From: Mycobacteriales bacterium
GTDB lineage: Bacteria; Actinomycetota; Actinomycetes; DATLTS01
Reading direction: 5' to 3'
Assembly (NCBI GenBank): GCA_035533475.1
Contig: DATLTS010000025.1
Span: 62,001 to 126,000, forward strand
Length of the DNA stretch: 64,000 nt
Part shown: in pieces, positions 26,273 through 43,279 of the stretch
Layout: each line of letters starts with the position of its first letter
Numbering within the stretch: the stretch's first letter is position 1
The notes under the pieces: generated by a model
Told to the model about the DNA's origin: nothing
The model's input: the letters and a program-made list of their open reading frames with translations, nothing else
Databases searched by the model: none
Position numbers and translations under genes: made by a program

Positions 26273-27457
26273 CTATTTCAGGAAGTCCGGGACGTCGAGG
26301 TCGTCGCTGTCGTCGAAGACGATCGTCCGGCGGGGGGCCGACCGGGTTCCGCCGGCCGGGCGGGCGGCGGCCGGCTGGGGCGTGGCGGCCGGCGGGGGTG
26401 CCGCGGGGCGGCCGACCGGCGGCTCCACCCGGGTGAGGTCGAGCTCCTGATCGAGCTCGGGCGGCGGCGGCGGGGCGATCCGGCGGATCGGCTCCCGGCG
26501 CTGCTGGGTGGTCCCGGCATCGAAACCGGCCGCGATCACCGTGACCCGGACCTCGTCGCCGAGCGCGTCGTCGATGACCGCGCCGAAGATGATGTTCGCG
26601 TCCGGGTGCGCCGAGTCGGCGATCAGCTGCGCGGCCTCGTTGATCTCGAACAAGCCGAGGTCCGAGCCTCCGGAGATGTTCATCAGCACACCGTGGGCAC
26701 CGTCGACGCTGGCCTCGAGCAACGGGCTGGCGATCGCCATCTCGGCGGCCGACGCAGCCCGGTCGTCGCCCCGGGCCGAGCCGATCCCCATCAGCGCGGA
26801 CCCGGCGCCGGACATGACCGACTTGACGTCGGCGAAGTCGAGGTTGATCAGGCCTGGGGTGGTGATCAGATCGGTGATCCCCTGCACGCCGGAGAGCAGG
26901 ACCTGGTCGGCGGACCGGAAGGCCTCGAGCACGCTGACCTGCCGGTCGCTGATCGAGAGCAGCCGTTCGTTCGGGATGACGATGAGCGTGTCGACCTCGT
27001 CCCGCAGGTCGGTTATGCCGCGCTCGGCCTGGCTGGCCCGGCGCTTGCCCTCGAACTGGAATGGCCGGGTGACGACGCCGATGGTCAGGGCGCCGATGGA
27101 CTTGGCGATGTTGGCCACGACCGGGGCGCCCCCGGTACCGGTCCCGCCGCCCTCCCCCGCGGTGACGAAGACCATGTCGGCGCCCTTGAGGACCTCCTCG
27201 ATCTCCTCTCGGTGGTCCTCGGAGGCCTGCCGGCCCACCTCGGGGTCGGACCCGGCGCCGAGCCCGCGGGTGAGCTCCCGGCCGATGTCGAGCTTGACGT
27301 CGGCGTCACTCATCAGCAATGCCTGGGCGTCGGTGTTGATCGCGATGAACTCGACCCCCTTGAGGCCGACCTCGATCATGCGATTGACGGCGTTGACGCC
27401 ACCGCCCCCGATGCCGACGACCTTGATCACGGCCAGATAGTTCTGCGGTGCTGCCAC
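26273..27457 (-). CDS. ftsZ: cell division GTPase FtsZ
   Basis: Tubulin homologue forming the Z-ring, 394 residues. The GTPase domain has [15 protein letters not shown], the tubulin signature [18 protein letters not shown], the T7-loop region [19 protein letters not shown] and a Pro-rich linker. The conserved C-terminal peptide DLDVPDFLK is present and would bind SepF and FtsW. GTG 27457 ([18 protein letters not shown]) was selected, with GAGAGGT about 9 bp upstream. The 314-bp region upstream is non-coding and its usual neighbour ftsQ is absent. Confidence 0.98.
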
Positions 27458-27771
27458 GGATGCAGACCTCTCGGATGCCTCGGGCCGGTGCCGGGCGCGC
27501 GCCACCGGCCGAACGGTGCGGGGGACTTCTCGCCGGGGCCGGTGGCGCGGGGAAGGCGCCACCGACTTCGGCGAGAGGGTGTCGGACCGGCCGATTTCGA
27601 CCCTTCCGACCCTCACCCTCAGGTAGATACTTATAGTTATGTCAACGTGAGGGCTGGGGCGGACCATAGGGGGATCTGGCCAGCCGGGTCAAGGCCGTCC
27701 CGGGTGAATTCCCTGCGTGTCGGCAGAATTCGGACGCTTAGTCTCCAGCTGTCGCAGGGTCGAGCTGAGCT
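27458..27771 (-). promoter_or_regulatory. ftsZ upstream region with conserved AT-rich element; no gene
   Basis: This 314-bp gap holds no credible gene. On the minus strand an AT-rich island begins with TTGACATAACTATAAGTATC (27645 down to 27626) and continues into CTGAGGGTGAGGGT. It stands out sharply from the surrounding GC-rich DNA and resembles the element commonly found just before ftsZ in actinobacteria. It contains a perfect -35 hexamer (TTGACA at 27645-27640), but no -10 at normal spacing was found, so calling it a promoter is inference. FtsQ would normally be encoded here; neither the room nor the sequence for it exists. Confidence 0.65.
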
Positions 27772-28740
27772 TCAGGGGCCGGCGAGGCCCCCGAAATCCC
27801 CGACCGCCCGCACCTCGGGGCGCAACTCGGGCCCCCCGGCCTCGCGGACCGCCCGCTGAACCCGGACCAGCAGGCCCAGCACGTCGGCGGCCCGGGTTCC
27901 GGGATCGACGACGATGAAGTTCGCGTGCCTGTCGGAGATCTGGGCGCCCCCGACCCGCAGCCCCTTGAGCCCGGCCGCCTCGATGAGGCGCCCGGCCGAG
28001 TCCCCCGGCGGATTGGTGAAGGTCGAGCCGCACGAACGCGCCCGCAATGGCTGTGTGTGGCGGCGCCAGGCTCGGTGATCGGCCAGCCGCTGCCCGATGG
28101 CCACCGGGTCGTCCGGCCGGAGCCGGAACTCGGCGGCGGTGACGACGGTCCGGGGCGGCAGCGCCGACCGTCGGTACCCGAGGCCCAGCTCGGCGGCAGC
28201 GACCCGGCGCGGGTGGGGCTGCTCGGGGCTGGCCAGGTCGGCCCCGGCGAGCACGTCGGCGACCTCACCGGAGTGCGCACCGGCGTTCATCCGAACCGAT
28301 CCGCCGACGCTCGCGGGAATCGCGGCGGCGAACTCGAGGCCGGTCAGCCCCGACCGGGCGGTCCAGGCGGCCAGTTGCGGCATCGCCACCCCCGCGCCGA
28401 CCTCGATCCGGTCGCCCTCGCGGTGGCGGCGGGTGAAGCCGCGGCCGAGCCGCAACGCCAATCCTGGGAACCCGGCGTCGGCGACCAGCAGGTTCGACCC
28501 CTTGCCGAGGACGAGCATCGGGACCGCCGACTCCGGGCTGGGGGCGAGCAGCTCCAGGATCCGGGTCAGCGCGGCCTGGTCGACCGGCTCGACGAACACG
28601 GCGGCCGCCCCGCCGACCCCGAACGTGGTGAGCGGCCCGAGCGGGCGGGCGGTCTGCACCGCCAGCCCGGCGGCGGTGAGGCGGGCGGCCAGGTCTGCGA
28701 CCGCCGCCGGGTCGGCCGGCGGCGACCAGACGAAGCTCAC
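27772..28740 (-). CDS. murB: UDP-N-acetylenolpyruvoylglucosamine reductase
   Basis: Reduces UDP-GlcNAc-enolpyruvate to UDP-MurNAc with NADPH and FAD. The 322-residue protein has the FAD-binding segments LTTFGVGGAAAVFVEP, LVLGKGSNLLVAD and GLEFAAAIPASVGGSVRMNAGAHSGEV. The catalytic region includes SCGSTFTNPPGDSAGRLIEAAGLKGLRVGGAQISDRHANFIVV, with the Ser proton donor in SCGSTF. The GTG start overlaps the murC stop by 4 bp. It follows murC, where ftsQ often sits. Confidence 0.97.
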   Translation of the reverse strand: MSFVWSPPADPAAVADLAARLTAAGLAVQTARPLGPLTTFGVGGAAAVFVEPVDQAALTRILELLAPSPESAVPMLVLGKGSNLLVADAGFPGLALRLGRGFTRRHREGDRIEVGAGVAMPQLAAWTARSGLTGLEFAAAIPASVGGSVRMNAGAHSGEVADVLAGADLASPEQPHPRRVAAAELGLGYRRSALPPRTVVTAAEFRLRPDDPVAIGQRLADHRAWRRHTQPLRARSCGSTFTNPPGDSAGRLIEAAGLKGLRVGGAQISDRHANFIVVDPGTRAADVLGLLVRVQRAVREAGGPELRPEVRAVGDFGGLAGP

Positions 28741-30140
28741 GGCGCGGGACGCAGCACGTCGAGGATCTCCGGGCCGATCATGGTGACGTCCCCGGCACCG
28801 AGGGTGAGAACGAGATCGCCGGGCCGGACCAGCCCGGCGACCCGGCCCGGCACCGCCGACCAGGACGGCTCGTAGTGAACCGCATCGGCGGCGAGCGGGA
28901 CGGCGCCGGCGACCAGCGCCCCGGTCACCCCGGGGATCGGGTCCTCACCGGCCGCGTAGACCTCCATAACGACAACGACGTCGGCGAGCGCCAGGGCGGC
29001 CCCCAGCGCGGTCGCGAACCCGGCGGTCCGGGTATAGCGGTGCGGCTGGAAGACGGCGACGACTCGACCGTCCCCCCCGACGACCTGGCGGGCCGCGGTC
29101 AGCACCGCCCGGATCTTCGTCGGATGGTGGGCGTAGTCGTCGACGACCCGGATCCCACCAACCCATCCCTTCGTCTCGAACCTGCGCCGGGCGCCGGTGA
29201 ACCCGGCCAGCCCGGCGGCCAGCTCGGCGAACGGCGCGCCGAGCTCGAGCCCGGCGGTCAGCGCCGCGACGGCGTTGCTCGCGTTGTGCCGACCCGGGAC
29301 GACGAGCTGCACGGTCCCGAGCCGGCGCCCGATGGCGATGACCTCGAACCTGGCTCGCTCGCCCTCCAGGCGCAACCCGTCGACCCGCACCGCGGCGTCA
29401 TCCGCCCAGCCGTAGCTCACCACCCGACGGCCGGCGGCCGTCGCCGCGGCAGCGACCCGCCGCGCCCCGACGTCGTCGGCGCAGGTCACGACGAAGCCGT
29501 CCGTCGAGACCCGGGCAACGAACTCGGCGAACGCCTCTTCGACCGCGGCCGCCGTGCCGTAGTGGTCGAGGTGGTCGGCCTCGACGTTGGTGACGACGGC
29601 GGCGAACGGGGAGAGCAGGAGGAACGAGCCGTCACTCTCGTCGGCTTCGGCCACGAACAGGTCACCACCGCCGTGGTGGGCGTTGGAGCCTGGTTCGTTG
29701 AGGTCTCCGCCGATGGCGAACGAGGGATCGAGCCCGCAATGTTGCAACCCGACGGTCAGCATCGACGTTGTCGTCGTCTTCCCCGCGGTGCCGGCGATCG
29801 CGATCCCCCGCCGGCCGGCCATCACCGCGGCCAGCGCCGCGGCCCGGGGCAGCACCAGCAGCTCGCGGCGGCGAGCCTCGATCAGCTCCGGGTTGTCCGC
29901 CCGGATCGCACTCGAGACGACGACCGTGTCCGCCGTGTCGACCCAGTCCGGGTCGTGCCCGACGTGGACCTGTGCCCCGAGCGCCCGCAGCGCGGCCAAC
30001 CCGCGGGAATCCTTGGCGTCGCTGCCGGAAACCTGGGCGCCACGGGCCAGCAGGATCCGGGCGATGCCGCTCATCCCGGCGCCGCCGATCCCGATGAAGT
30101 GCACCCGACCGAGCGGCGCCGGACCGGACGGCGCGCTCAC
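28737..30140 (-). CDS. murC: UDP-N-acetylmuramate--L-alanine ligase
   Basis: Adds L-alanine to UDP-MurNAc using ATP. The 467-residue Mur ligase has [22 protein letters not shown] at the N-terminus, the P-loop [39 protein letters not shown], and [15 protein letters not shown] with [16 protein letters not shown] 30140 was taken as start, with a 4-bp overlap with murG. The open frame upstream is the shadow of murG. Confidence 0.97.
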
Positions 30141-31231
30141 TGGTGCGTCCCGGCGCTGAGCACGAGATCCGCCAGCGCCTCGTCGCCGTCGCGGCGACCG
30201 AACCGGGCCGCCGCCGAGCTCATGCCGGCCAGCCGTCCCGGGTCGGTCAGCAGCGGCAGCAGGGTCTCGGTGATCCACGTGGCGTCCAGCCGGGCGTCGT
30301 CGACGAGCAGGCCACCCCCGGCGGCCACCACGGGTTCGGCGTTGCGGCGCTGCTCGCCGTTTCCGATCGGAAGCGGAACGTACGCGGCGGGCAGACCCAC
30401 CGCCGCCAGCTCGGCGCAGGTCATGGCGCCGCCCCGGCACAGCGCGAGGTCGGCTGCGGCGTAGGCGAGCTCCATCCGGTCGAGGTAGGGCAACACGACG
30501 TAGCGCGGGATGGGCGGCCGGCCGGCGATCGCCGCCTCCGTCGAGGCCGCGTGCGCCGCGCCGGTGAGGTGCAGCACCTGGACCCCGGCCCCGGCGAGCC
30601 CCGCGGCGGCCCCCACCACGGCTTCGTTGACCCGTCTGGCGCCCTGCGAGCCGCCGAACACGAGCAGCACCGGGGCGCCCAGCGCGAGACCCAGGGTCAG
30701 CCGGGCGGCGTCGCGACCGGTCGAACGGTCGAGGGTCGCGATCGGCCGGCGCAGCGGCATGCCGACGAAGGTGGCGTGCGGAAGCCGGGCCCCCGCCGCC
30801 GCGGTCGCGACGTGCCGGGTCAGCCGGGCTCCGACCCGGTTGGCCAACCCGGGGCGGACGTTCGCCTCGTGCACGACGATCGGGACCCGCCGCCGCCGTG
30901 CGGCCAGGTAGGCGGGCAGCGCGGCGTAACCCCCGAAGCCGACCACCACGTCGGCTCGCGGGCGGTCGAGCACCCGCCCGGCCGCGCGGACGGCTCGGAC
31001 CAGTCGCGCCGGCACCGTCGCCAGGGCGGGGGTGAGCCGGCGGGGCAGCGGGACCGGCGGGATGAGCTCCAGCGGGTATCCGCGGGCCGGCACCAGCCGG
31101 CTCTCCAATCCACGCTCGGTGCCGATCACGACGATCGAGACGTCAGGGCGCCGTCGGCGCAACGCGTCCGCGGTCGCCAGCGCGGGCTCGATGTGTCCGG
31201 CCGTGCCACCGCCGGCGATGACCACCCGCAT
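30137..31231 (-). CDS. murG: UDP-GlcNAc:lipid-I N-acetylglucosaminyltransferase
   Basis: Makes lipid II from lipid I at the inner face of the membrane. The 364-residue GT-B enzyme has the Gly-rich loop [49 protein letters not shown], the second Gly-rich loop [18 protein letters not shown], and the UDP-GlcNAc site [41 protein letters not shown] 31231 gives the family-typical start and lies 29 bp after the ftsW stop. Confidence 0.97.
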
Positions 31232-31260
31232 CGCCGGGACGCCACCGGGCGACCCGGGGC

Positions 31261-32451
31261 TCACCGGCCGCGGCGGCGGGCGGCGAGCAGGGCCACGGCG
31301 TCCGGCTCGCGGCGGGCGAACGAGGCGAGCATGCCGACCGCGAACATGGTGGGCACGAGCGAGGATCCGCCGAAGCTCACCATCGGCAGGGGGATGCCGG
31401 TGACCGGGAGCAGCCCGGTGACGAAGCCGATGTTCACCAGGGCCTGGGAGACCAGCCAGGCGGTGATCCCGGCGGCGGCCAGCCGGGTGAACGGGTCGGT
31501 GTTGCGCAACGCGATCCGCAGCCCGGCGTAGCCGAGCATCGCGAACAGGGCGAGGACCGAGCAGGCGCCGATCAGGCCGAGCTCCTCGCCGATGACCGCG
31601 TAGATGTAGTCGGTGTACTGGTTGGGCAGGTAGAACCATTTCTCCCGGCTGGCGCCCAGCCCGAGGCCCCACCATCCGCCCGAGGACAACGCGTAGAGAC
31701 CCTGCACCGCCTGATAGCCGCTGCCCTGCGGGTCGCGGAACGGGTCGGTGAAACTGGTCAGCCGGGCCAGCCGGTATGGCGCCGCGGCGGCGAGCACGCC
31801 GAGCCCGCCGCCGAGCGCCAACCCGGTGCCGCCGAACAGCGCGAGCGGAGCTCCGGCCACCCAGAGCAGGGCACAGGTGACGGTGACGAGAACGATCGTC
31901 GTCCCCATGTCCGGTTCGACCATGACCAGCCCGGCGAGGAGCAGCGTGATGGGCAGCAACGGGACCAGCAGGTGCCGCCACTGGCCGAGCAACCTGTCCT
32001 TGCGGGCCAGCAGGTCCGCCCCCCACAGCAGCAGCGCGAGCTTCGTGGGTTCGCTCGGCTGGAGCTGGAAGCCGCCGGGCAGCGTGATCCAGCGCCGGGC
32101 CCCGTTCACGCTGGCCCCCACCCCGGGGACGAGGACCGCGACGAGCAGCACGACGGACAGGGCGAGCATCGGGTATCCGAGCCATCGGTAGGCCTTGACC
32201 GGCAGCCGCATCGCGACCAGCAGGGCCGGGATCCCGATCACGACCCAGAGCGCCTGCTTCTTCACGACCGCGAACGACGAACCGGACGTCGCGAACGAGG
32301 TGACGCTCGATGCGGACAGGACCATGACGAGCCCGAGGATCACGAGCAGGGCACAGCTACCTAGCACCAGGTGATAGTCGGCAAGCGGGCGGTCCAGCCA
32401 GGCGAGGGTCCGGGTCCGGCGGCCGGGCCCGGCGACGGCAGCGGCGCTCAC
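31261..32451 (-). CDS. ftsW: septal peptidoglycan glycosyltransferase / lipid II polymerase FtsW
   Basis: SEDS-family polymerase of septal peptidoglycan. The 396-residue protein has about ten membrane helices. Conserved SEDS segments are [37 protein letters not shown] (the essential Asp region), [39 protein letters not shown] and [16 protein letters not shown]. It starts at GTG and overlaps the murD stop by 4 bp. FtsI, its transpeptidase partner, is upstream in the same cluster. Confidence 0.96.
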
Positions 32452-33830
32452 CGGCGACGAGCCGCCAGTGCGACCACGGCAGCCACGAACGCCTCGCCCC
32501 GCTCGGCGTAGTCGCGGAACATGTCCATGCTCGCGGCGGCCGGCGCCAACAGCACCGTGGTACCCGGAGTGGCCAACCGGGCAGCCGATGTCACGGCCTC
32601 GTCCATGGCCCCAGTGTCGGTCCTCGCGACCTCGACGACCGGCACCTGCGGCGCGTGTCGCGTGAGTGCCTCGAGCACCGCGCCGCGGTCGACGCCGACG
32701 ACGACGGCACCCGCCAGCCGGTCGGCGGCGGCTCGCACGGCCGGCGTCAGGTCCGCCCCCTTGAGCAGCCCACCGACGATCCAGACCACGCGGGTATGGG
32801 CGGTGATACTCGCCGTCGCGGCATGCGGGTTGGTCGCCTTCGAGTCGTCGACGTAGGCGACCCCGTCGACGGTCGCGACAACGTCACCGCGATGCGGCTC
32901 GAGGCGCAGCCCGGCCAGCCCCCGGGCGACGGCGTCCGCCTCGACACCCCGGCTGCGCGCCAGGCCGGCCGCGGCCAGGGCGTTCGCCAGATGATGCGGG
33001 CCGGACGGCCGGACGTCCTCGACCCGGGCGAGCAGCGCAGCTTCGGCGAACGCCCGGTCGACGAGATACCCATCTTCAACGCCAAGCTCCCCCTCCCGCG
33101 GACGACCGAGCGTCACCGCCACCGTCCGCCCGGCCACGTCGGCCAAACGCGCAGCCACCTCCGGGTCGTCCCGGTTGCCCAGCGCGAGCCCCCCTGCCCA
33201 GATCTTGAGCTTGTCCGCGGTGTACGCGGCGAAGCTGCCGTGCCAATCGAGGTGGTCCTGGGCGAGGTTGAGCAGGGCCCCGGCCGCGCAGGCCAACGAC
33301 ACCGACCAGTGCAGCTGGAAGCTCGACAGCTCGGCGACGACGACCTCGGGCGCCGGCTCGGTGAGCACCGCGTCCACGAGCGGGGTTCCGACGTTGCCGG
33401 CGGCGACCACCCGCCGCCCGGCGGCGCCCAGCATCGCGGCGGCCATCCGGGTAGTGGTCGTCTTGCCGTTGGTTCCGGTGATGGCGAGCCAGGGCGCCGC
33501 CCCCGGCGGGCGCAACCGCCAGGCCAGCTCGACCTCACCGATCACCTCGACGCCGGACCGGAGGGCGGCGGTGAGCAACGGCTGATCCGGGCGCCAGCCG
33601 GGTGACGTGACGACGAGGTCGACCCGGTCCGGCAGCACCGTCGCATCGCCGAGTCGGACCCGCACACCGGCCGCGGACAGCTCCGCCGCCGTGGCCCGCT
33701 GCTCGGCACCGTCGCGGGCGTCCACCGCGATGACGTCCGCGCCGAGCCGGGCCAAGGCGAGCGCCGCGGCCCGTCCGGAGACGCCGACCCCGCCGACGGC
33801 GACCAGCCGCCCCGCCGGGTCGAATCTCAC
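32448..33830 (-). CDS. murD: UDP-N-acetylmuramoylalanine--D-glutamate ligase
   Basis: Adds D-glutamate to UDP-MurNAc-L-Ala. The 460-residue Mur ligase has [18 protein letters not shown] (N-terminal Rossmann), the P-loop [64 protein letters not shown] and [22 protein letters not shown]. It overlaps ftsW downstream and mraY upstream by 4 bp each. Confidence 0.97.
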
Positions 33831-34903
33831 CGCAACGGGCCGCGGGAAAGGAACTCGGCGTAGAAGACGCCCAGCCCGAAGGCGACGGCGAGGCCGGCGA
33901 TGATCCAGAACCGGACGATGACCGTGTTCTCGTTCCAGCCGCCGAGCTCGAAATGGTGGTGCACCGGGGCCATGTTGAACACCCGCCGCCGGAAGCCGCG
34001 GAATGCCACCACCTGGATGATCACGGACAGCGTCTCCACGACGAACAGGCCGCCGAGGATGACGAGCAGCAACTCAGTGCGGGTGGTCATCGCCAGGCCG
34101 GCCAGCGTCCCGCCGAGCGCAAGCGACCCGGTGTCCCCCATGAACACGCGGGCCGGCGACGCGTTCCACCACAGGAAGCCGAAGCACGCCCCCATCGCCG
34201 CGGACGCGACCGTCGCCAGGTCGAGCGGGTCCCGCACGTGGTAACAGCCGGGGCCCGGCGCGCTCCCGCAGCCGTTCTTGAACTCCCAGAACGAGATGAC
34301 CACGTAGGCCGCGAACACCATGACCGCCGCTCCCGACGCCAGCCCGTCGAGCCCGTCGGTGAGGTTCACGCCGTTCGATGTCGCCGAGACCATGAGGTAC
34401 GCCCAGATGACGAACCCGACGGTGCCGAGTACCAGCCCCGGGTAGTCGCGGACGAAGGACAGGTGGCTCGACACCGGGGTCAGGTGAACCAGTCCCCCAC
34501 CGGGAAAATGCAGCGCGAGCACGCCGAAGACGACGGCGACGACGGCCTGACCGACGAGCTTCGTCGTCTTGTTGAGCCCGAGGCTGCGCTGCTTGCGAAT
34601 CTTGATGTAGTCGTCGAGAAAGCCGACCAGCCCGAGGCCGGTCATGAGGAACAGGACGAGCACCGCCGACGCGGTCGGTCCACTGAGCAGGACGAGATGG
34701 GCGACGGTGTAACCGGAGATCGTGGCGGCGATGATGACCGTGCCGCCCATCGTGGGGGTGCCGCGCTTCGTGTGGTGGCTGGTCGGGCCGTCCTCGCGGA
34801 TCAGCTGGCCGTAGCCGCGCGAGCGGAAGAGCCGAATCGCCAGCGGCGTACCCACCAGCGAGACGATGAGCGAACCCATGGCCGCGACCAGGATGTCCCT
34901 CAC
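33827..34903 (-). CDS. mraY: phospho-N-acetylmuramoyl-pentapeptide transferase
   Basis: Integral membrane enzyme (10 helices, 358 residues) that makes lipid I from UDP-MurNAc-pentapeptide and undecaprenyl phosphate. Signature segments are [43 protein letters not shown] (catalytic Asp pair), [35 protein letters not shown] and [20 protein letters not shown]. The GTG at 34903 ([10 protein letters not shown]) overlaps the murF stop by 4 bp. Confidence 0.98.
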
Positions 34904-36288
34904 GACAGGTTCTCCAGCGCGGCGGCGACCCGTTCCAACCCGACCCGCCGGGAGGCCTTGACCAGGACGACGTCGCCGGGACCCAGCTCGGCCGCGAGCA
35001 GGGTGGCCGCCTCGTCGGCGTCGGCCACCCGGATGCTCCGGCCACCGGCGGCGCGCGCCGCGGTGTCGATTCCGGCGGCTCCGTCCCCCACCGCGACGAT
35101 CCGGTCTACGCCGAGCGCCACGGCCAGCCGGCCGACGTCCGCATGGGCCTGCGCGCCGTACGGGCCGAGTTCGAGCATCTCGCCGAGCACCGCCCATCCG
35201 CGTCGCTGCCCGGCGCCCTGGCCACGCAAATGCGTCAGCGTCGTCAACGCCGCTCGAACCGAGTCGGGGTTGGCGTTGTAGGCATCGTTGAGCAGAAGAA
35301 TCCGTCGTGGCAACTCACGGAGCTCCATCCGCCAACGGCTGACCGGACGGGCGTCGGACAGCGCGGCGGCGATCGCGAGGAGCGGAAGGCCGAGGACGCC
35401 GGCCGCGGCTGCCGCGGCGAGCGCGTTGGGCACCTGGTGAGCGCCGACGTAGCCGAGTCGCACGGGGACCGGCGACCCGTCGCCGGAGCGCAACCCGAAG
35501 CCCGGTCGGCCGCACTCGTCGAGGGTCACCTTCCCCGCCCGCACCAGGGCGCCGGCGCCCAGCCCGAAGGTGACGACGCGCCCGGGGGCGCGGGCGGCCA
35601 TCGCGGACACCAGCGGGTCGTCGGCGTTGAGAACGGCGGTCCCGTCTGCGGCGAGGCCCTCGACAAGCTCCGCCTTCGCGGTCGCGATCGCGTCCCGGCT
35701 GCCGAACTCGCCGACGTGGGCATCACCGACGTTGAGGACCACGGCCACATCCGGGCGGGCGATCCCGGTGAGGTAGCTGATGTGGCCCCGGCCGCGAGCG
35801 CTGTACTCCAGCACGAGGTAGCGGGTGTCCCCGTCCGCCGCGCACGCCGTGAGCGGCAGCCCGATCTCGTTGTTGAACGAGTCGCTGGCGGCCACCGTCG
35901 GACCGTCGGCGGCGAGGACCGCGGCCAGCAGATCCTTGGTGGTCGTCTTCCCACTCGAGCCGGTCACGCCGACGACGTGCAGCCCGGGCAACCGGCGCAG
36001 AACCTCCGCGGCCAGCCGACCGAGCCCCTCGACGACGTCGTCGACGACGACGGCCGGCCGGCCGAGCGGGGCAGCCGCGAGCACGGCGACGGCACCCGCG
36101 GCGAGCGCCGCCGGGGCGAAGTCGTGTCCGTCCACGCGGTCCCCGCGGACCGCCACGAACAGCGTGCCTGGTCCGGCCCGGCGGGAGTCGACGACCGGTG
36201 CCGCGGTGACCGCCGACGCGGGGTCCGCGCCGCCGTCGAGCCGACCGCCGACGGCATGCGCGACCTCGGCGAGGGTGAGCCGGATCAC
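34900..36288 (-). CDS. murF: UDP-N-acetylmuramoyl-tripeptide--D-alanyl-D-alanine ligase
   Basis: Adds D-Ala-D-Ala to complete the UDP-MurNAc-pentapeptide. The 462-residue enzyme has [26 protein letters not shown], the P-loop [66 protein letters not shown] and [19 protein letters not shown] start; overlaps with murE and mraY of 4 bp. Confidence 0.97.
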
Positions 36289-37862
36289 CCGGCACGCCCC
36301 GCGGTGGGGCAGCGGCTCGCCAGCGCGGCCCGCAGAACCGCCCGGTCGTCGAAGCCGTCGGTCCGGTCAGCGAACTCCTGACCGGTCTCATGGCCCTTGC
36401 CCGCGACGACCACCGCGTCGCCGGGCCCGGCGGCCGCCACCGCGAATCCGATCGCGGCCCGGCGGTCCGGTTCGACATGCACCCGGCCGCGATCCGCCGC
36501 GCCGACCAGCATGGCGTCGATGATCGCGCCCGGGTCCTCCGAGCGGGGGTTGTCGGAGGTGAACACCGCGAGGTCGGCCCCGGCGACGGCGGCGGCCCCC
36601 ATCAACGGGCGTTTCCCCCGGTCCCGGTCACCGCCGCAACCGAGGACGACGACGATCCGACCGTCGATGACATCCCGGACCGCGGCGAGCAGCCGGGCCA
36701 CCGCCACGGGGGTATGCGCGTAGTCGACGAGGGCCAGGAACGCCTGGCCCTCGTCGATCCGCTCCATCCGGCCGGGAACGCCTGACATCGCGGCTATCCC
36801 GGCCCGGGCGCGTTCGATCGGGACCCCGACCGTGGCCAGGGCGGCGAGGGCCAGGGTGGCGTTGGTGACGTTGAAGCCGCCGGCCAACCAAGTGCGGACC
36901 CGAAGGTCGACGCCGGGTCCGGGTGCCGGGCCGGGGCCGGTGAGCCGGAAGCTGCTCCCGGTCCGGGCGAGCTCGACTTCGGTGGCCTGCCAGTCGGCGT
37001 CGCCGCGGCCGTCAGCGGACACCGTGGCCACCCGCAGTTCGCCTTCGGCTCGCAGGGATCCCGCGAGGCGCGCGCCGGCCGGATCGTCGACGCCGACGAC
37101 CGCGGCGCTGGTGAATCCGGGCGTGAACAGCCGGGCCTTCGCCGCGAAGTAGTCGTCCATCGACCGGTGGAAGTCCAGGTGGTCCTGCGACAGATTGGTG
37201 AACACCGCCGCCGCGAACCGGGTGCCGTCGACCCGGCGCAGCGCCAGCGCGTGGCTCGACACTTCCATGACCGCGGCGTCGACCCGCTGCCCGCGCATGA
37301 CCGCGAAAGTGGCCTGGAGGTCGGTGGCTTCGGGGGTCGTCCGCACGCTGGGGGTCACCTCGTCGGCGATCCGGGTCTCGACGGTCCCGATCAGACCGGT
37401 CCGGTGTCCGGCGGCGCGCAGCCCCGCCTCGACGAGGTGGGCGGTCGTGGTCTTGCCGTTGGTCCCGGTGACCCCGATCAGGAGCAGGTCGTCGGCCGGC
37501 GCCCCGTAGGCCCAGCGCGCGACCGGTCCGAGCTGGGCGCGCGGGTCGGCGACGACGAGCACCGGGAGGCCGGTCGCGAGCGCGTCCGGTTCGCCGGCCG
37601 GGTCGGTGAGAACCGCAACCGCACCGGCCGCGGCCGCCGCCGCCGCGAAGGCCGCACCGTGCAGGCGAGCTCCGGGGAGTGCGGCGTACAGGTCGCCGGG
37701 GCGGACCCGCCGGGAATCGTGGGTGGCGCCACCGACCGTGACGTCGTCGAGGGCAGCGCCGGTGACCCGGGCGCCCCCGAGCAGCGGAAGGATCTCGCCG
37801 AGCGGGTGACGACCGACCGCCGACGGTCGGGGCGGCGGGGCTCCGGACTCCTCGGGGCGCAC
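36285..37862 (-). CDS. murE: UDP-MurNAc-tripeptide synthetase, meso-diaminopimelate type
   Basis: Adds meso-diaminopimelate to UDP-MurNAc-L-Ala-D-Glu. The 525-residue Mur ligase has THDSRRVRPGDLYAAL, the P-loop [61 protein letters not shown] and VLGCGGDRDRGKRP. The specificity motif TSDNPRSEDP (DNPR) points to meso-DAP rather than lysine, matching an actinobacterial A1-gamma type wall. The GTG start (VRPEESG) is 48 bp after ftsI; an N-terminal Pro-rich stretch of about 15 residues is extra. Confidence 0.97.
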   Translation of the reverse strand: MRPEESGAPPPRPSAVGRHPLGEILPLLGGARVTGAALDDVTVGGATHDSRRVRPGDLYAALPGARLHGAAFAAAAAAAGAVAVLTDPAGEPDALATGLPVLVVADPRAQLGPVARWAYGAPADDLLLIGVTGTNGKTTTAHLVEAGLRAAGHRTGLIGTVETRIADEVTPSVRTTPEATDLQATFAVMRGQRVDAAVMEVSSHALALRRVDGTRFAAAVFTNLSQDHLDFHRSMDDYFAAKARLFTPGFTSAAVVGVDDPAGARLAGSLRAEGELRVATVSADGRGDADWQATEVELARTGSSFRLTGPGPAPGPGVDLRVRTWLAGGFNVTNATLALAALATVGVPIERARAGIAAMSGVPGRMERIDEGQAFLALVDYAHTPVAVARLLAAVRDVIDGRIVVVLGCGGDRDRGKRPLMGAAAVAGADLAVFTSDNPRSEDPGAIIDAMLVGAADRGRVHVEPDRRAAIGFAVAAAGPGDAVVVAGKGHETGQEFADRTDGFDDRAVLRAALASRCPTAGRAG

Positions 37863-37910: not shown

Positions 37911-39716
37911 TCACGGAAAGGTGAGCCGGACGACCGGGCGCGTGGTGCCGGTCGGCGGGATGCGCAGCGACTCGAGGGCGAAGCTCATGATGTCGTGGAA
38001 GATCGGGGCGGCCACGGTACCGCCGAAGTGGCCGTTTATCGGCTGCTGGAGGACGACCTCGACGACCAGCTGCGGATCGTTCGCCGGCGCGAATCCGACG
38101 AAGGAAGCGGTGTAACCGGAGTAGCCGCCGTGGCCGTTCGCCCGGTCCGCGGTACCGGTCTTGCCGGCCACCCGGTAGCCGGGGATCTGTGCCTCCGGCG
38201 CCGTGCCCTGCTCGGTGGTGACCGCCTCCAGCATGTCCGACATCTCGCGCGCGACGGCCGCGCTGATCACCCGGACCCGGGTGGGGGGCGGCGCCGGCAC
38301 GAACTGCCCGGTCGCGCTGACGGTGCCCTTGAGGATGGTCGGGGTCACGCGCACCCCGCCGTTCGCCACGGTCGCGTACACGGACGCGACCTGCATCGCG
38401 GTCACCGAGACGCCCTGGCCGAAGGCGACCGTCGGCAGCGTCGTCCCCGACCAGGCGTCCAGCGCCGGCAGGAGGCCCCCGCTCTCCCCGGGGAGCCCAA
38501 CGCCGGTCGGGCTGCCGTATCCGTAGGCCCGCAGGTAGCGGTAGAGCGTCGCCGGCCCGAGTTTCTGCGCCGTCTCGATGGTGCCGATGTTGCTGGACTC
38601 GGCGAGAACCCCGGTGAGGGTGAGGTGCTCCACCCCGTGCGGCTCGGCGTCGTGGAACACCTGTCCGGCCACCGTGATCGTCGGCGGCACGATCACCGGG
38701 CTGAGCGGCGTCGCGACGCCCTGCTCGAGCGCCGCCGACATCGTGATCACTTTGTTCACGCTGCCCGGCTCGTACACCTCACTGACCGCCGGGTCACCGA
38801 GGTCGGCCCCGGGCACCGCGGTCGGGGCGTTCGGATCGAACCCGGGGGCGGTGGCCAGAGCCAGGATCTGACCGGTGCGCGGATCCATGACGATGACCGA
38901 CCCGCTGGACGCACCGATCCGCTTGACCTGAGCCGCGATGGCCCGCTGGGCCTCCCACTGGATGTCCCGGTCGATGGTCAGCTCGAGCGACGTCCCCGGC
39001 TGTGCCGGGACCAGCACGTCCTCCCCGGCCGGGATGATCCGACCATCGGCGCCGGTCTCTACCAGCTGGCTACCGTCGTGCCCGCGGAGCAGGCGGTCGT
39101 CCAGGTACTCGAGTCCGGCCAGGCCGACGCCGTCGACCCCGACGAAACCGAGCACGGACGCCGCAATCGGCCCGTCCGGATAGATCCGCCGGCTCGAGTC
39201 CAGCACCCCGATGCCCGGCAGGTTCAACGCCGTGACCGCCCGGCCGGCCGCGGGTGTGACACCCCGGGCCAGGTAGACGAAGTGTCCGAGCTCGTCGAGT
39301 CGCTGGGCGAGGATGGCAGCCGAGACGCCGAGCAGCGGGGCGAGCTCGGCGGCCATCGCCGGCACCTGGATCGTCGAGCCGGCCGCGCGCACCGTGTTCG
39401 GGTCGGCGTATACGTCGCGGGCGTCGACGCTCTGGGCGAGCAGGTGCCCGGAGCGGTCGAAGATGGGGGCCCGCAGGGCGGTGAGGGTGATCTGGCGGAG
39501 CCGCTGCTCCTGAGCCAGCCGGGCGAAGTGCGGTCCCTCGATCCCCTGCACCTGGACCAACCGGGCGGCCAGCAGGCCCACCACGAGCATCAGCACGCCG
39601 GTGGCGACCCGCAACCGCCGATCCGGCAGCCGGCGGGGCGCCCGGCTGCCCGGAGCGGGACGGCGGGGCGCCGGCACGCGACGCGTCGGCACGCGACGCG
39701 TCAGCTGCCGGCTCAT
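37911..39716 (-). CDS. ftsI: septal transpeptidase, penicillin-binding protein FtsI/PbpB
   Basis: Crosslinks septal peptidoglycan outside the membrane. The 601-residue class-B PBP has a basic cytosolic N-terminus, one helix (VATGVLMLVVGLLAARLVQV, about 37-56), a dimerisation domain (RAPIFDRSGHLLAQSV), and the transpeptidase domain. Active-site motifs are SxxK as EPGSVNKV (about 318), SxN as ESSNIG and KTG as VAGKTGTADRANG. No PASTA domain is seen. It overlaps the ftsL-like gene by 4 bp. Confidence 0.97.
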   Translation of the reverse strand: MSRQLTRRVPTRRVPAPRRPAPGSRAPRRLPDRRLRVATGVLMLVVGLLAARLVQVQGIEGPHFARLAQEQRLRQITLTALRAPIFDRSGHLLAQSVDARDVYADPNTVRAAGSTIQVPAMAAELAPLLGVSAAILAQRLDELGHFVYLARGVTPAAGRAVTALNLPGIGVLDSSRRIYPDGPIAASVLGFVGVDGVGLAGLEYLDDRLLRGHDGSQLVETGADGRIIPAGEDVLVPAQPGTSLELTIDRDIQWEAQRAIAAQVKRIGASSGSVIVMDPRTGQILALATAPGFDPNAPTAVPGADLGDPAVSEVYEPGSVNKVITMSAALEQGVATPLSPVIVPPTITVAGQVFHDAEPHGVEHLTLTGVLAESSNIGTIETAQKLGPATLYRYLRAYGYGSPTGVGLPGESGGLLPALDAWSGTTLPTVAFGQGVSVTAMQVASVYATVANGGVRVTPTILKGTVSATGQFVPAPPPTRVRVISAAVAREMSDMLEAVTTEQGTAPEAQIPGYRVAGKTGTADRANGHGGYSGYTASFVGFAPANDPQLVVEVVLQQPINGHFGGTVAAPIFHDIMSFALESLRIPPTGTTRPVVRLTFP

Positions 39717-40225
39717 CGGTGGGCGCTCTTTCGCGGTGCCTTGCGCACCGCCGGTTTCGCCGCTGCCCGCGGGGCCTTGGTCACGGGCGCCGCCTTCGCC
39801 GGCGCCGACTTGATCACCGCCGGCGGGGCGGGGGCGGCGACGATCTCGCCGAGCATCTGGCCGTCCCGCAACCGGACCCAGATCGGCGCACCCCCCGGGT
39901 CCATACCGAGCCGTTGGGCCGCCGCGGCCAGCGCGTCCGGAGCGGAGGCGGTGTCGACCTGGCCGGCCAGCGCCTGCTCCGCGTCGGCGAGTTGGCCGGC
40001 GCGGAGCTGGAGGTCCTGAATCCGGAAGGCGTCCTGGGCGGAGAGGGTGTTCAGCAGGAGCAGCCCGACCAGCCCGGCGCCGAGCAGCCCGACGACGAGC
40101 AGGACGAACGCCAGCCGGCCGGGCCGCTGCCCGGCCTGCGGGGTGGGAGCCGTGGGTACCAGGCGCAGCGGCGGTCGAGGCCGGGGGACGGAGGCAAGCT
40201 TCGGGTTGCGGACGGCGGTGGTCAT
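39713..40225 (-). CDS. ftsL: FtsL-like septum formation protein with Ala/Lys/Pro tail
   Basis: A 170-residue bitopic membrane protein in the position of ftsL. After a polar start it has one helix ([25 protein letters not shown], about 36-60) and a short coiled-coil ([25 protein letters not shown]). It ends with a C-terminal tail about 40 residues long rich in Ala, Lys and Pro ([23 protein letters not shown]). FtsL joins FtsB/DivIC and FtsQ in the divisome; sequence conservation is low, so position and topology carry the call. It overlaps rsmH upstream and ftsI downstream by 4 bp each. Confidence 0.85.
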
Positions 40226-41184
40226 GCCGCTGCCCGGATCCGCTCGGCGGCCCGGAGCCGCACCGAACTCGACCTCGGGTTGGCGGCGACCTCGTCGGCG
40301 GAGGCCCGCTCGGCGCCGCGGGTGAGCAGCCGCAGCCGGGGGTGGTCCTCCTCGCGGAGCACCGGCAGGTCGGGTGGCGCGGTGACCGAGGCCCCCGCGA
40401 CGAACGTGCGCTTGACCATGCGGTCTTCCAGCGAGTGGTAGGCCAGCACGACGATCCGGCCGCCGACCCGAAGCGCGTCGACCGCCGCCGGAAGGGCCCG
40501 CTCGAGCGCCGCGAGCTCGGAGTTCACCTCGATCCGCAGCGCCTGGAAGGTCCGCTTCGCCGGGTTCCCGCCGGTCCGGCGGGCCGGCGCCGGAACCGCC
40601 TGCCGAACCAGTTCCACCAGCCGGGCCGAGGAGCGCAACGGCTCGCGTTCGCGCTCGCGAACGACCAGGCTCGCGATCCGTCGGGCGTAGCGCTCCTCGC
40701 CGTAGACCCGGAGCACCCGAGCCAGGTCGTCGGCCGAATACGTGGCCAGCACGTCCGCCGCGCTCGGGCCACGGGTCGGATCCATCCGCATGTCGAGAGC
40801 CGCGTCCCGTGCGTAGGAGAAACCCCGGTCCGCATCATCGAGCTGGAGGGAGGAGACCCCGAGGTCGAACAGCACGCCGTCGACGCGCGCAATGTCCATC
40901 CGGTCGAGGACCTCGGGTAGCTCGTCGTAAACGGCGTGGACCAGCGTCAGCCGGGCGGCGTGGGGGGCCAGCCGGCGCGAGCTCGCCTGGATCGCCGCCG
41001 GATCGCGATCCAGACCGACGAGGCGTAAACCGGGATGCCGATCGAGCAGCGCCTCGGCGTGCCCGCCGAGGCCGATCGTCGCGTCGACCAGGATCGCCGG
41101 GCGGTCGGCGACGGCCGGCTCGAGCAGCGCGACGACCCGGTCGAGCAGCACGGGAACGTGACCCGGCGACTCGTTGCTGTCCAT
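40222..41184 (-). CDS. rsmH: 16S rRNA (cytosine-1402-N4)-methyltransferase
   Basis: Methylates N4 of C1402 in the ribosomal P site. The 320-residue protein has [15 protein letters not shown], the SAM loop [44 protein letters not shown] (family signature), [16 protein letters not shown], and [21 protein letters not shown]. The ATG start lies after a 177-bp structured leader that separates it from mraZ. Confidence 0.97.
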
Positions 41185-41361: not shown

Positions 41362-41793
41362 CTAGAAGATTCCGGGCAGCACCTCCTCGGACAGGTCCGC
41401 GAAGGCGTCCTCCTGAGCGGCCAGGTAGCTCGCCCAGGCGGCGGCATCCCAGACCTCGACCCGGGTGTTGGCCCCGATGACCGCGCAGTCGCGCTCGAGC
41501 CCGGCGTAGTCCCGCAGCCCGGTGGGGATCGTGATCCGCCCCTGCCGGTCCGGCACCTCGTCCGATGCGCTGGCGAAGAACACCCGGCTGTAGTCGCGGG
41601 CCCCCTTGGCGGCCAGCGGCGCTCCGCGCAGCCGTTCGGTGACCCGCTGGAACTCCTCGAGGGAGAACACGTAGAGGCAGTGCTCCTGACCCTTGGTGAT
41701 CACCAGGCCCTCGGCGAGCTCGTCGCGGAACTTGGCCGGCAGGAACAGCCGACCCTTCTCGTCGAGATGCGGAGCGTAGGTGCCGAGAAACAC
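41362..41793 (-). CDS. mraZ: MraZ, transcriptional regulator of the dcw cluster
   Basis: DNA-binding repressor made of two SpoVT/AbrB-like halves, 143 residues. It has the family start [32 protein letters not shown] and a second half [40 protein letters not shown]. Two GTG codons compete: 41799, only 2 bp after the Shine-Dalgarno GGAGG, and 41793, 8 bp after it. The second gives the canonical VFLGT start and 143 residues, so it is preferred. It heads the cluster and probably represses its own promoter through repeats just upstream. Confidence 0.96.
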
Positions 41794-41836
41794 CGGCACC
41801 GCCTCCCGTCAGCTACTCCCACATCCCCCACGGAGC

Positions 41837-41867
41837 GCCACTGTACTCCACTTCACTCCACGGTCAA
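41837..41867 (-). promoter_or_regulatory. mraZ promoter with three MraZ-type direct repeats
   Basis: On the minus strand a -35 TTGACC (41867-41862) and a -10 TACAGT (41845-41840) are separated by 16 bp. Three repeats GTGGA, GTGGA, GTGGC (41861-41857, 41851-41847, 41841-41837) recur exactly every 10 bp, two inside the spacer and one touching the -10. MraZ is known to bind TGGGN-type repeats with 5-bp spacers, so autorepression is a reasonable inference. A further GTGGG pair follows downstream before the start codon. Confidence 0.8.
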
Positions 41868-41936
41868 CGAAAAACCGCCGAAGCCGGGCCGGGTCGACCC
41901 ACGGAGATGTCGAGAGCGGTCGGAACAAGGCCTGGC

Positions 41937-42158
41937 TCAGCGGTAGACGGCGTGGACCCAGACGTCGGTGAGCCCGTCGACCAGACGGCCCCGCTCGACC
42001 GTGTCGAGCAGCCGGGACACGGTGGTGTCCACGATGGCGGCGAGCGCCTGGGCCACCACCGCCACGTCGAGGCCCGCCCGGGCCGCCTCGAGCAAGCGAG
42101 CCCGGGTGAGGTCGCCACGGGCCGCCCGGGAACCCGGCGAGGGGGACCGCTCGTCCAT
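41937..42158 (-). CDS. hypothetical small protein upstream of mraZ
   Basis: A 73-residue open frame starting at ATG (MDERSPSPGSRAARG). It is mostly helical in appearance: DLTRARLLEAARAGLDVAVVAQALAAIVDTTVSRLLDTVERGRLVDGLTDVW. It could be a tiny regulator or helical adaptor, but I recognise no family. It lies 75 bp upstream of the mraZ -35 box on the same strand and is divergent from moxR. Coding status is uncertain; no clear Shine-Dalgarno is seen. Confidence 0.45.
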   Translation of the reverse strand: MDERSPSPGSRAARGDLTRARLLEAARAGLDVAVVAQALAAIVDTTVSRLLDTVERGRLVDGLTDVWVHAVYR

Positions 42159-42271
42159 GGTGGCGAAGTGTGCCAAACCGACGAAGCCCGGAGCACTCCT
42201 CCGGGTCGGCCGACCCTGGCACACTGATCAGCGACACGGCTGCTCGACGGCCGGGTCCGGAGGAGGAACCC

Positions 42272-43279
42272 GTGCCGCGTCGCACCGACCATCCGCTGGC
42301 CGCGGTCGACCTCGACGAGGTGGCGAACGAGGCGGCGCGGATCGTGGCCGCCATCGAGACCGTGATCGAAGGCAAGACCGAGCCGGTCCGACTCGCCGTC
42401 ACCGTTCTGCTCGCCGAGGGCCACCTGCTCATCGAAGACGTCCCCGGGGTCGGAAAGACCATGCTGGCCAAGGCGTTCGCGCGGGCCATCGACTCCACGG
42501 TGCACCGGATCCAGTTCACCCCCGACCTGCTGCCCAGCGATGTCACCGGCGTCTGCGTCTACAACCAGGAGACCCGGGACTTCGAGTTCAAACCGGGCGC
42601 CATCTTCGCGAACATCGTGGTCGGGGACGAGATCAACCGTGCCTCGCCGAAGACTCAGTCCGCCCTGCTCGAGTGCATGGAGGAGCGGCAGGTCACCGTC
42701 GACAGCGTCACCTACCTGCTCGAGGCTCCGTTCATGGTCATCGCGACCCAGAACCCGGTCGACATGGAGGGCACCTACCCGCTGCCGGAAGCGCAACGCG
42801 ACCGGTTCACAGCTCGGCTGGCGATGGGCTACCCCAGCCCCGCGGCGGAACTCGCGATGCTCGACAACCACAGCGGGGACAGCCCGCTCGACGATCTCGA
42901 GCCGGTGACCGACGGGCTCTACGTGGCGAAGCTGATCGACGCGGTCCGCACCGTCCATATCTCCGACGACGTCCGCCGCTACGCGGTCGACCTGGTCACC
43001 GCGACCCGCAGCACCCCGGAGCTCCGGTTGGGCGCCTCGCCGCGAGCCACCCTGCACCTGATGCGGACCGCCCGGGCGAAGGCGGCGCTCGCCGGCCGCG
43101 ACTTCGTCCTGCCGGACGATCTCCAGGAGCTCGCGGTGCCGGTGCTCGCGCACCGGCTGCTCCCCGCGGCCGAGACCCAGGTCGCGCGCCGATCCACCAG
43201 CGATGTCGTCAACGACCTGCTGGCGCAGGTCCCGGTCCCCCGCACCGCGCCACGGCGCACCCGGGGTGCGAGCGGCTGA
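42272..43279 (+). CDS. MoxR-family AAA+ ATPase
   Basis: A 335-residue chaperone-like ATPase. Walker A is EDVPGVGKTMLAKAFA (about 60), Walker B is VVGDEINRASPKTQSALLECMEE (about 123), sensor 1 lies in MVIATQNPVDMEGTYPLPEAQRDRF, and a C-terminal lid domain follows. GTG 42272 was chosen, with GGAGGAGGAACCC upstream; the open frame reaches further back but is unconserved. It is the first gene of a moxR-DUF58-tgpA operon, an arrangement common in actinobacteria. Confidence 0.94.
   Translation: MPRRTDHPLAAVDLDEVANEAARIVAAIETVIEGKTEPVRLAVTVLLAEGHLLIEDVPGVGKTMLAKAFARAIDSTVHRIQFTPDLLPSDVTGVCVYNQETRDFEFKPGAIFANIVVGDEINRASPKTQSALLECMEERQVTVDSVTYLLEAPFMVIATQNPVDMEGTYPLPEAQRDRFTARLAMGYPSPAAELAMLDNHSGDSPLDDLEPVTDGLYVAKLIDAVRTVHISDDVRRYAVDLVTATRSTPELRLGASPRATLHLMRTARAKAALAGRDFVLPDDLQELAVPVLAHRLLPAAETQVARRSTSDVVNDLLAQVPVPRTAPRRTRGASG

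Follow-up and report, generated by a model that had tools for sequence, protein, structure and literature searches.

The window, a stretch of 64,000 nucleotides, carries on its minus strand a division and cell wall gene cluster whose first gene, mraZ (41362..41793), encodes two MraZ domains (PF02381, matched in two stretches, 122 bits). It is followed on the same strand by rsmH, also known as mraW (40222..41184; PF01795, 2.5e-108), an ORF of 170 aa without a Pfam match in the place of ftsL (39713..40225), and a gene for an ftsI-type transpeptidase (37911..39716; PF00905, 1.9e-74). Eight ORFs were tested in the remainder of the cluster (26273..37862, minus strand), which encodes Mur ligases, MraY-type and FtsW-type proteins, MurB and FtsZ; murG and ftsQ were not identified among these eight. 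For mraZ itself, GTG 41793 is the more likely start codon compared with GTG 41799, because it is preceded by a GGAGG whose end lies 8 bases upstream, and because the proteins of relatives start at the same F-L-G-T. Residues D11/R15 and D82/R86 are invariant in alignments of MraZ and conform to D-x-x-x-R, which we take to be the motif of the family. The MraZ of Nonomuraea endophytica, a relative, shows 79% identity to that of the window. Structure prediction for the window MraZ, together with 26 relatives, gave a low mean pLDDT of 46.4; solved MraZ structures include 1n0e, 9qlg, 9qlr and 9sx6, among others.

Divergent from the mraZ promoter region, on the plus strand, lies a gene for an AAA_3 ATPase (42170-43279; the MoxR-type label is ours). 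An ORF of 95 aa between this gene and mraZ (41937-42224, minus strand) is probably not a gene, having yielded no Pfam match and, at E 1, no tblastn match in 80 named actinobacterial loci.

Upstream of mraZ, direct reading and a promoter scan together delineate a compact element (41867-41828, minus strand) that combines a promoter with four predicted MraZ boxes, each reading GTGG and recurring with an exact 10-bp period. The -35 hexamer TTGACC (41867-41862) is immediately followed by box R1 (41861-41858, with A and G next), R2 (41851-41848), R3 (41841-41838) and R4 (41831-41828), and the -10 hexamer TACAGT (41845-41840) shares its two final bases with the first two of R3. Boxes thus occupy the 16 bases between the hexamers. 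Judging from the position of the -10, transcription would be expected to start between R3 and R4; the mraZ start codon lies 34 bases past R4. The hexamer pair scores 9 of 12 as a housekeeping-sigma promoter, with a spacing inside the 16-18 bp range, and was the sole promoter-like site in the 541 bases scanned (41760-42300), compared to a mean of 0.0 in 50 shuffles. The preliminary description had placed the boxes in the spacer and -10 of a TTGACC-N16-TACAGT promoter, which both lines of evidence bear out. It had also counted three repeats in exact 10-bp register; the period and the boxes themselves stand, but the count is four, R4 falling outside 41837-41867. An MraZ operator is expected to comprise three or more direct repeats with a GTG(G) core, spaced 10 bp apart and situated before mraZ; the locus has four exact boxes in the mraZ promoter, with an intact two-domain MraZ encoded next.

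In dinucleotide shuffles of the 410-base region, an array of four exact GTGG units with 10-bp periodicity arose in 0 of 3000 cases and one of three such units in 4 of 3000. Across the entire 3.27-Mb genome, the four-box pattern, written with GTGGNG boxes, had one exact match, the mraZ promoter array; allowing 3 mismatches yielded six weaker matches elsewhere, versus four for a reversed control pattern. The sole other triple-GTGG site in the genome, at C25:181234, was dropped as an additional MraZ target because it lies within mechanically listed ORFs.

We examined the conservation of this layout in 118 stretches upstream of mraZ, comprising the window, 37 stretches from 36 other genomes of the class and the 80 named actinobacterial loci; one locus was counted twice (L040 and L099), leaving 117 distinct loci. 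An array reaching 13 or more of the 16 GTGG letters was found in 117 of the 118 stretches (116 of the 117 distinct loci), compared to 28 of 2360 shuffles, and the sole miss among the distinct loci, L097, had only 69 upstream bases. The best four-unit array contained four exact GTGG units in 78 stretches, three in 29, two in 10 and one in 1 (78, 28, 10 and 1, respectively, once the duplicate is removed); among the 2360 shuffles, 129 reached two and none went beyond that. In total, 114 of the 118 arrays could be aligned, with L097, L109, L113 and L136 below the cut. Since this alignment was chosen by score on the boxes and the TA of the -10, those letters are favoured by construction, as applies to the T of GTGG (93, 96, 92 and 96% in the four boxes) and to the TA within TAnnnT at the -10 (97 of 114 arrays). 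Letters unused for the alignment were conserved too, namely, the sixth box position, which is G in 431 of 456 boxes, and the TTG at the -35 place, present in 87 of 114 arrays. In 9 of the 114 aligned arrays (for example, in L004, L015, L016, L024 and L037), an extra GTGG box precedes R1 by 10 bp, which places the -35 itself in a box spacer.

To escape the circularity of the box score, we anchored the stretches on TTGAY-N17-TAnnnT alone, which yielded one site in 25 of 38 stretches of the class set and in 58 of the 80 named stretches (none in 13 and 22, respectively). In these two anchored sets, GTGG was present at R1 in 20/25 and 55/58 loci, at R2 in 24/25 and 57/58, at R3 in 25/25 and 58/58 (with one letter forced by the anchor), and at R4 in 17/25 and 55/58.

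The occurrence of the array also tracks that of mraZ across genomes. We searched 296 genomes of the class for a composite of boxes and promoter, GTGGNGN4GTGGNGTANNGTGGNG, and obtained 161 matches in 160 genomes, one per genome except in G033, as against a single match, in G100, for the reversed control pattern; placement of the matches at mraZ covers the genomes whose upstream DNA was fetched. G033 has two mraZ genes on different contigs (L034 and L035), each with its own box array. mraZ was detected in 258 of the 296 genomes, and the 38 without it comprise 20 listed directly and 18 that were absent from the match list. The composite pattern was present in 160 of the 258 mraZ-bearing genomes and in none of the 38 lacking the gene (Fisher p 6e-15, uncorrected for relatedness); the exact pattern was absent from the other 98 mraZ-bearing genomes. 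Of the mraZ-less genomes, 27 belong to a single genus, g18 of family f18, and all of these are 100% complete, with 0/27 carrying the pattern. Completeness is below 90% for 8 of the 11 outside g18, where the joint absence of gene and array may therefore reflect an incomplete genome.

Family f18, in which mraZ was found in 8 of 16 genomes sampled, offers a natural knock-out. None of 121 genomes of g18 had an MraZ-sized match; 17 had weak matches (22.6-25.7 bits), which fell within open frames 441-1280 residues long. At mraZ-less loci, we read the DNA upstream of rsmH instead (L171-L178, L199-L226 and L157). Family members with mraZ retain R1, R2 and R3 in 8/8 cases each and R4 in 6/8, whereas the members without it, of which 5 of 8 could be anchored (all but L172, L175 and L178), have GTGG at R1 in 0/5, R2 in 4/5, R3 in 0/5 and R4 in 0/5. 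One of these five, from the g18 genome G017, is present in both mraZ-less samples (as L171 and L157); the other four (L173, L174, L176 and L177) form a clade separate from g18, with R1 in 0/4, R2 in 3/4, R3 in 0/4 and R4 in 0/4. Within g18, the rsmH locus was obtained from 29 of 31 genomes and anchored in 25 of these 29; R1 was GTGG in 0/25 anchored loci, often still being G-rich, R2 in 23/25, R3 in 5/25 and R4 in 5/25. Thus, the boxes are kept with mraZ and eroded without it, R1, R3 and R4 being mostly lost, and R2 is the exception. The two separate mraZ-less clades share the same change at R3, from GTGG to GTGA (20/25 loci in g18; 3/4 in the other clade), while R2 mostly stays.

TTGACC-16-TAnnnT was retained in 25 of the 29 mraZ-less g18 loci; in the g18 members L172, L222, L223 and L226, GTGGACTAAAGT is retained and the -35 stretch is changed. 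At the mraZ-less f18 locus L175, no such promoter was seen. L225 was missed by the gene-start search, and its genome, G392, has the retained pattern. As a candidate mark of a regulon in g18, the retained sequence was searched for with a pattern including the -35, which had one match in each of 23 of the 31 genomes and none in the rest. In an RsmH tree of 31 rows, a single clade of mraZ-less members was rejected (p-AU 0.00061), and we read this as at least two probable losses of mraZ in f18, a reading that comes from a single-gene tree and a group tested after a smaller tree had been seen, with regain of the gene as the alternative.

Comparison with characterized MraZ systems places the array in a known type. 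In E. coli (NC_000913.3, L162), GTGGG occurs at positions 391, 401 and 411 upstream of mraZ, which there too heads the dcw cluster, so that the exact 10-bp step is that of the window and the repeated word is nearly so; the preliminary description had likewise taken the repeat spacing to match known MraZ binding. These boxes, for which PMC8475190 and PMC7761207 cite Eraso et al. 2014, are three in number and begin 7 bases after TAAACT, taken here as the -10, whereas the four in the window extend from the -35 over the spacer and -10 to the start region. Burkholderia cenocepacia likewise has four repeats, recurring every 10 bp (7 + 3), on a fragment reported to be bound by MraZ in gel shifts, but they are situated downstream of the -10, over the start site (PMC7761207). 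For Mollicutes, PMC5282649 and PMC8475190 cite Fisunov et al. 2016 for a site made of AAAGTG[T/G]-N3 repeats, which shares the GTG core, the 10-bp step and the location in the mraZ promoter, but differs in the letters that flank the core. Among actinobacteria, the MraZ of Corynebacterium glutamicum is referred to in citations as regulating the dcw operon (Maeda et al. 2016).

Considering these observations together, we regard it as highly probable that the array is an MraZ operator which overlaps the core promoter and serves autorepression. The operator reading had already been put forward in the preliminary description, and it gains support from the arrays before mraZ across the class and from their erosion in the mraZ-less lineages. 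MraZ, the product of the first gene of the cluster, would bind the four GTGGNG boxes, which at 10-bp steps should lie on one face of the helix, so that an MraZ oligomer could contact several of them at once. With boxes spread over the spacer and the -10, from the edge of the -35 as far as the approximate start, bound MraZ would be expected to shut RNA polymerase out of the promoter, and the protein would in this way set its own level along with that of the co-transcribed division genes, on a transcript whose length, taken in the preliminary description to include the whole division cluster, is presumed. Autorepression is the simplest reading, with both MraZ binding and the sign of the regulation inferred from the DNA itself. 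Repression of mraZ to murC by MraZ has been reported in E. coli (PMC7761207), and expression of the cluster goes up on mraZ deletion in M. genitalium (PMC5282649, PMC8475190), whereas MraZ raises cluster expression in N. elongata, and on account of this divergence among species we assign the sign provisionally.

It is the sign that the first alternative reverses. MraZ might bind the same boxes and activate, placing or bending the DNA such that polymerase can use the promoter with its 16-bp spacing. The report that mraZ, mraW, ftsL and ftsI are expressed at higher levels in wild-type N. elongata than in an mraZ deletion (PMC9395523) would fit this scheme, as would the changed -35 stretch in the four g18 loci noted above. 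However, the boxes overlie the start region and the spacer as well as part of the -10. In addition, most mraZ-less members still have the -35/-10 pair, which suggests a promoter able to function without MraZ; an obligatory activator would not predict this, and a repressor accommodates it better. On balance, we consider activation unlikely.

Alternatively, the array could be a feature of the promoter or the site of another DNA-binding protein, such as MtrA, which is reported to bind the mraZ promoter in Dietzia (PMC9602371), the link to mraZ then being incidental. The persistence of R2 as GTGG in 23 of 25 anchored mraZ-less genomes is in line with such a reader, but the loss of most copies of R1, R3 and R4 along with mraZ in two separate clades, the similar 10-bp GTGGG array at E. 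coli mraZ, and the near-uniqueness of the composite pattern within genomes all argue for MraZ, making an incidental link very improbable. We give almost no credence to the idea that the G-rich array acts as a G-quadruplex, as proposed for S. aureus, where one is reported to lie downstream of the mraZ promoter (PMC11796246). The boxes carry G pairs with 8-base loops: R1-R3 have two G each, whereas the usual motif needs four G runs, each of three or more and joined by short loops, and a longer G run appears only at and after R4. The T of GTGG is conserved, albeit as a letter favoured by the alignment, and R1 in the mraZ-less genomes is often G-rich yet never GTGG.

With autorepression by MraZ as the preferred reading, the behavior of R2 calls for a separate explanation. 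Since GTGG persists at R2 in nearly all anchored mraZ-less g18 genomes, not every box appears to be held by MraZ alone. We tentatively propose, as a possibility that falls short of being probable, that in the mraZ-less lineages the R2/-10 segment either has a second, MraZ-independent reader or plays a promoter role, for example as an extended -10 or a discriminator, and that it controls the division cluster there. Taken jointly with this idea and held just as tentatively, the operator and the sigma promoter in Actinomycetes may form one composite element in which some letters serve a double duty.

The MraZ operator is known as a type of switch; what appears mildly new is the fusion of its boxes with the -35 and -10 across a class, together with the natural knock-out. 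Control of the division cluster by MraZ has so far been known from a few model bacteria, with the boxes of E. coli and Burkholderia located downstream of the -10, and the present sequence-level evidence points to a class-wide layout with boxes right on the polymerase site. In the titles and opening parts of abstracts of a library that covers few subscription papers, we found no description of a fused box and promoter layout in Actinomycetes. The natural knock-out series helps to tell the letters of the operator from those of the promoter, and it predicts that the bases important to MraZ are those of R1, R3 and R4 as well as position 6 of the boxes, others being important to the promoter. For the specialist, the layout and the natural experiment are useful rather than surprising.

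Periodic GTGG-like arrays precede mraZ outside the class as well, with variable quality and place. In 20 loci (L179-L198) picked from 73 genomes of other classes in the same phylum, 16 arrays had at least 13 of the 16 box letters and 4 had 12, a level of 12 or more that was also reached by 188 of the 2360 shuffles, which cover the class set alone. At four of these loci (L188, L191, L192 and L198), the first box comes right after a TTGCA or TTGACA stretch.
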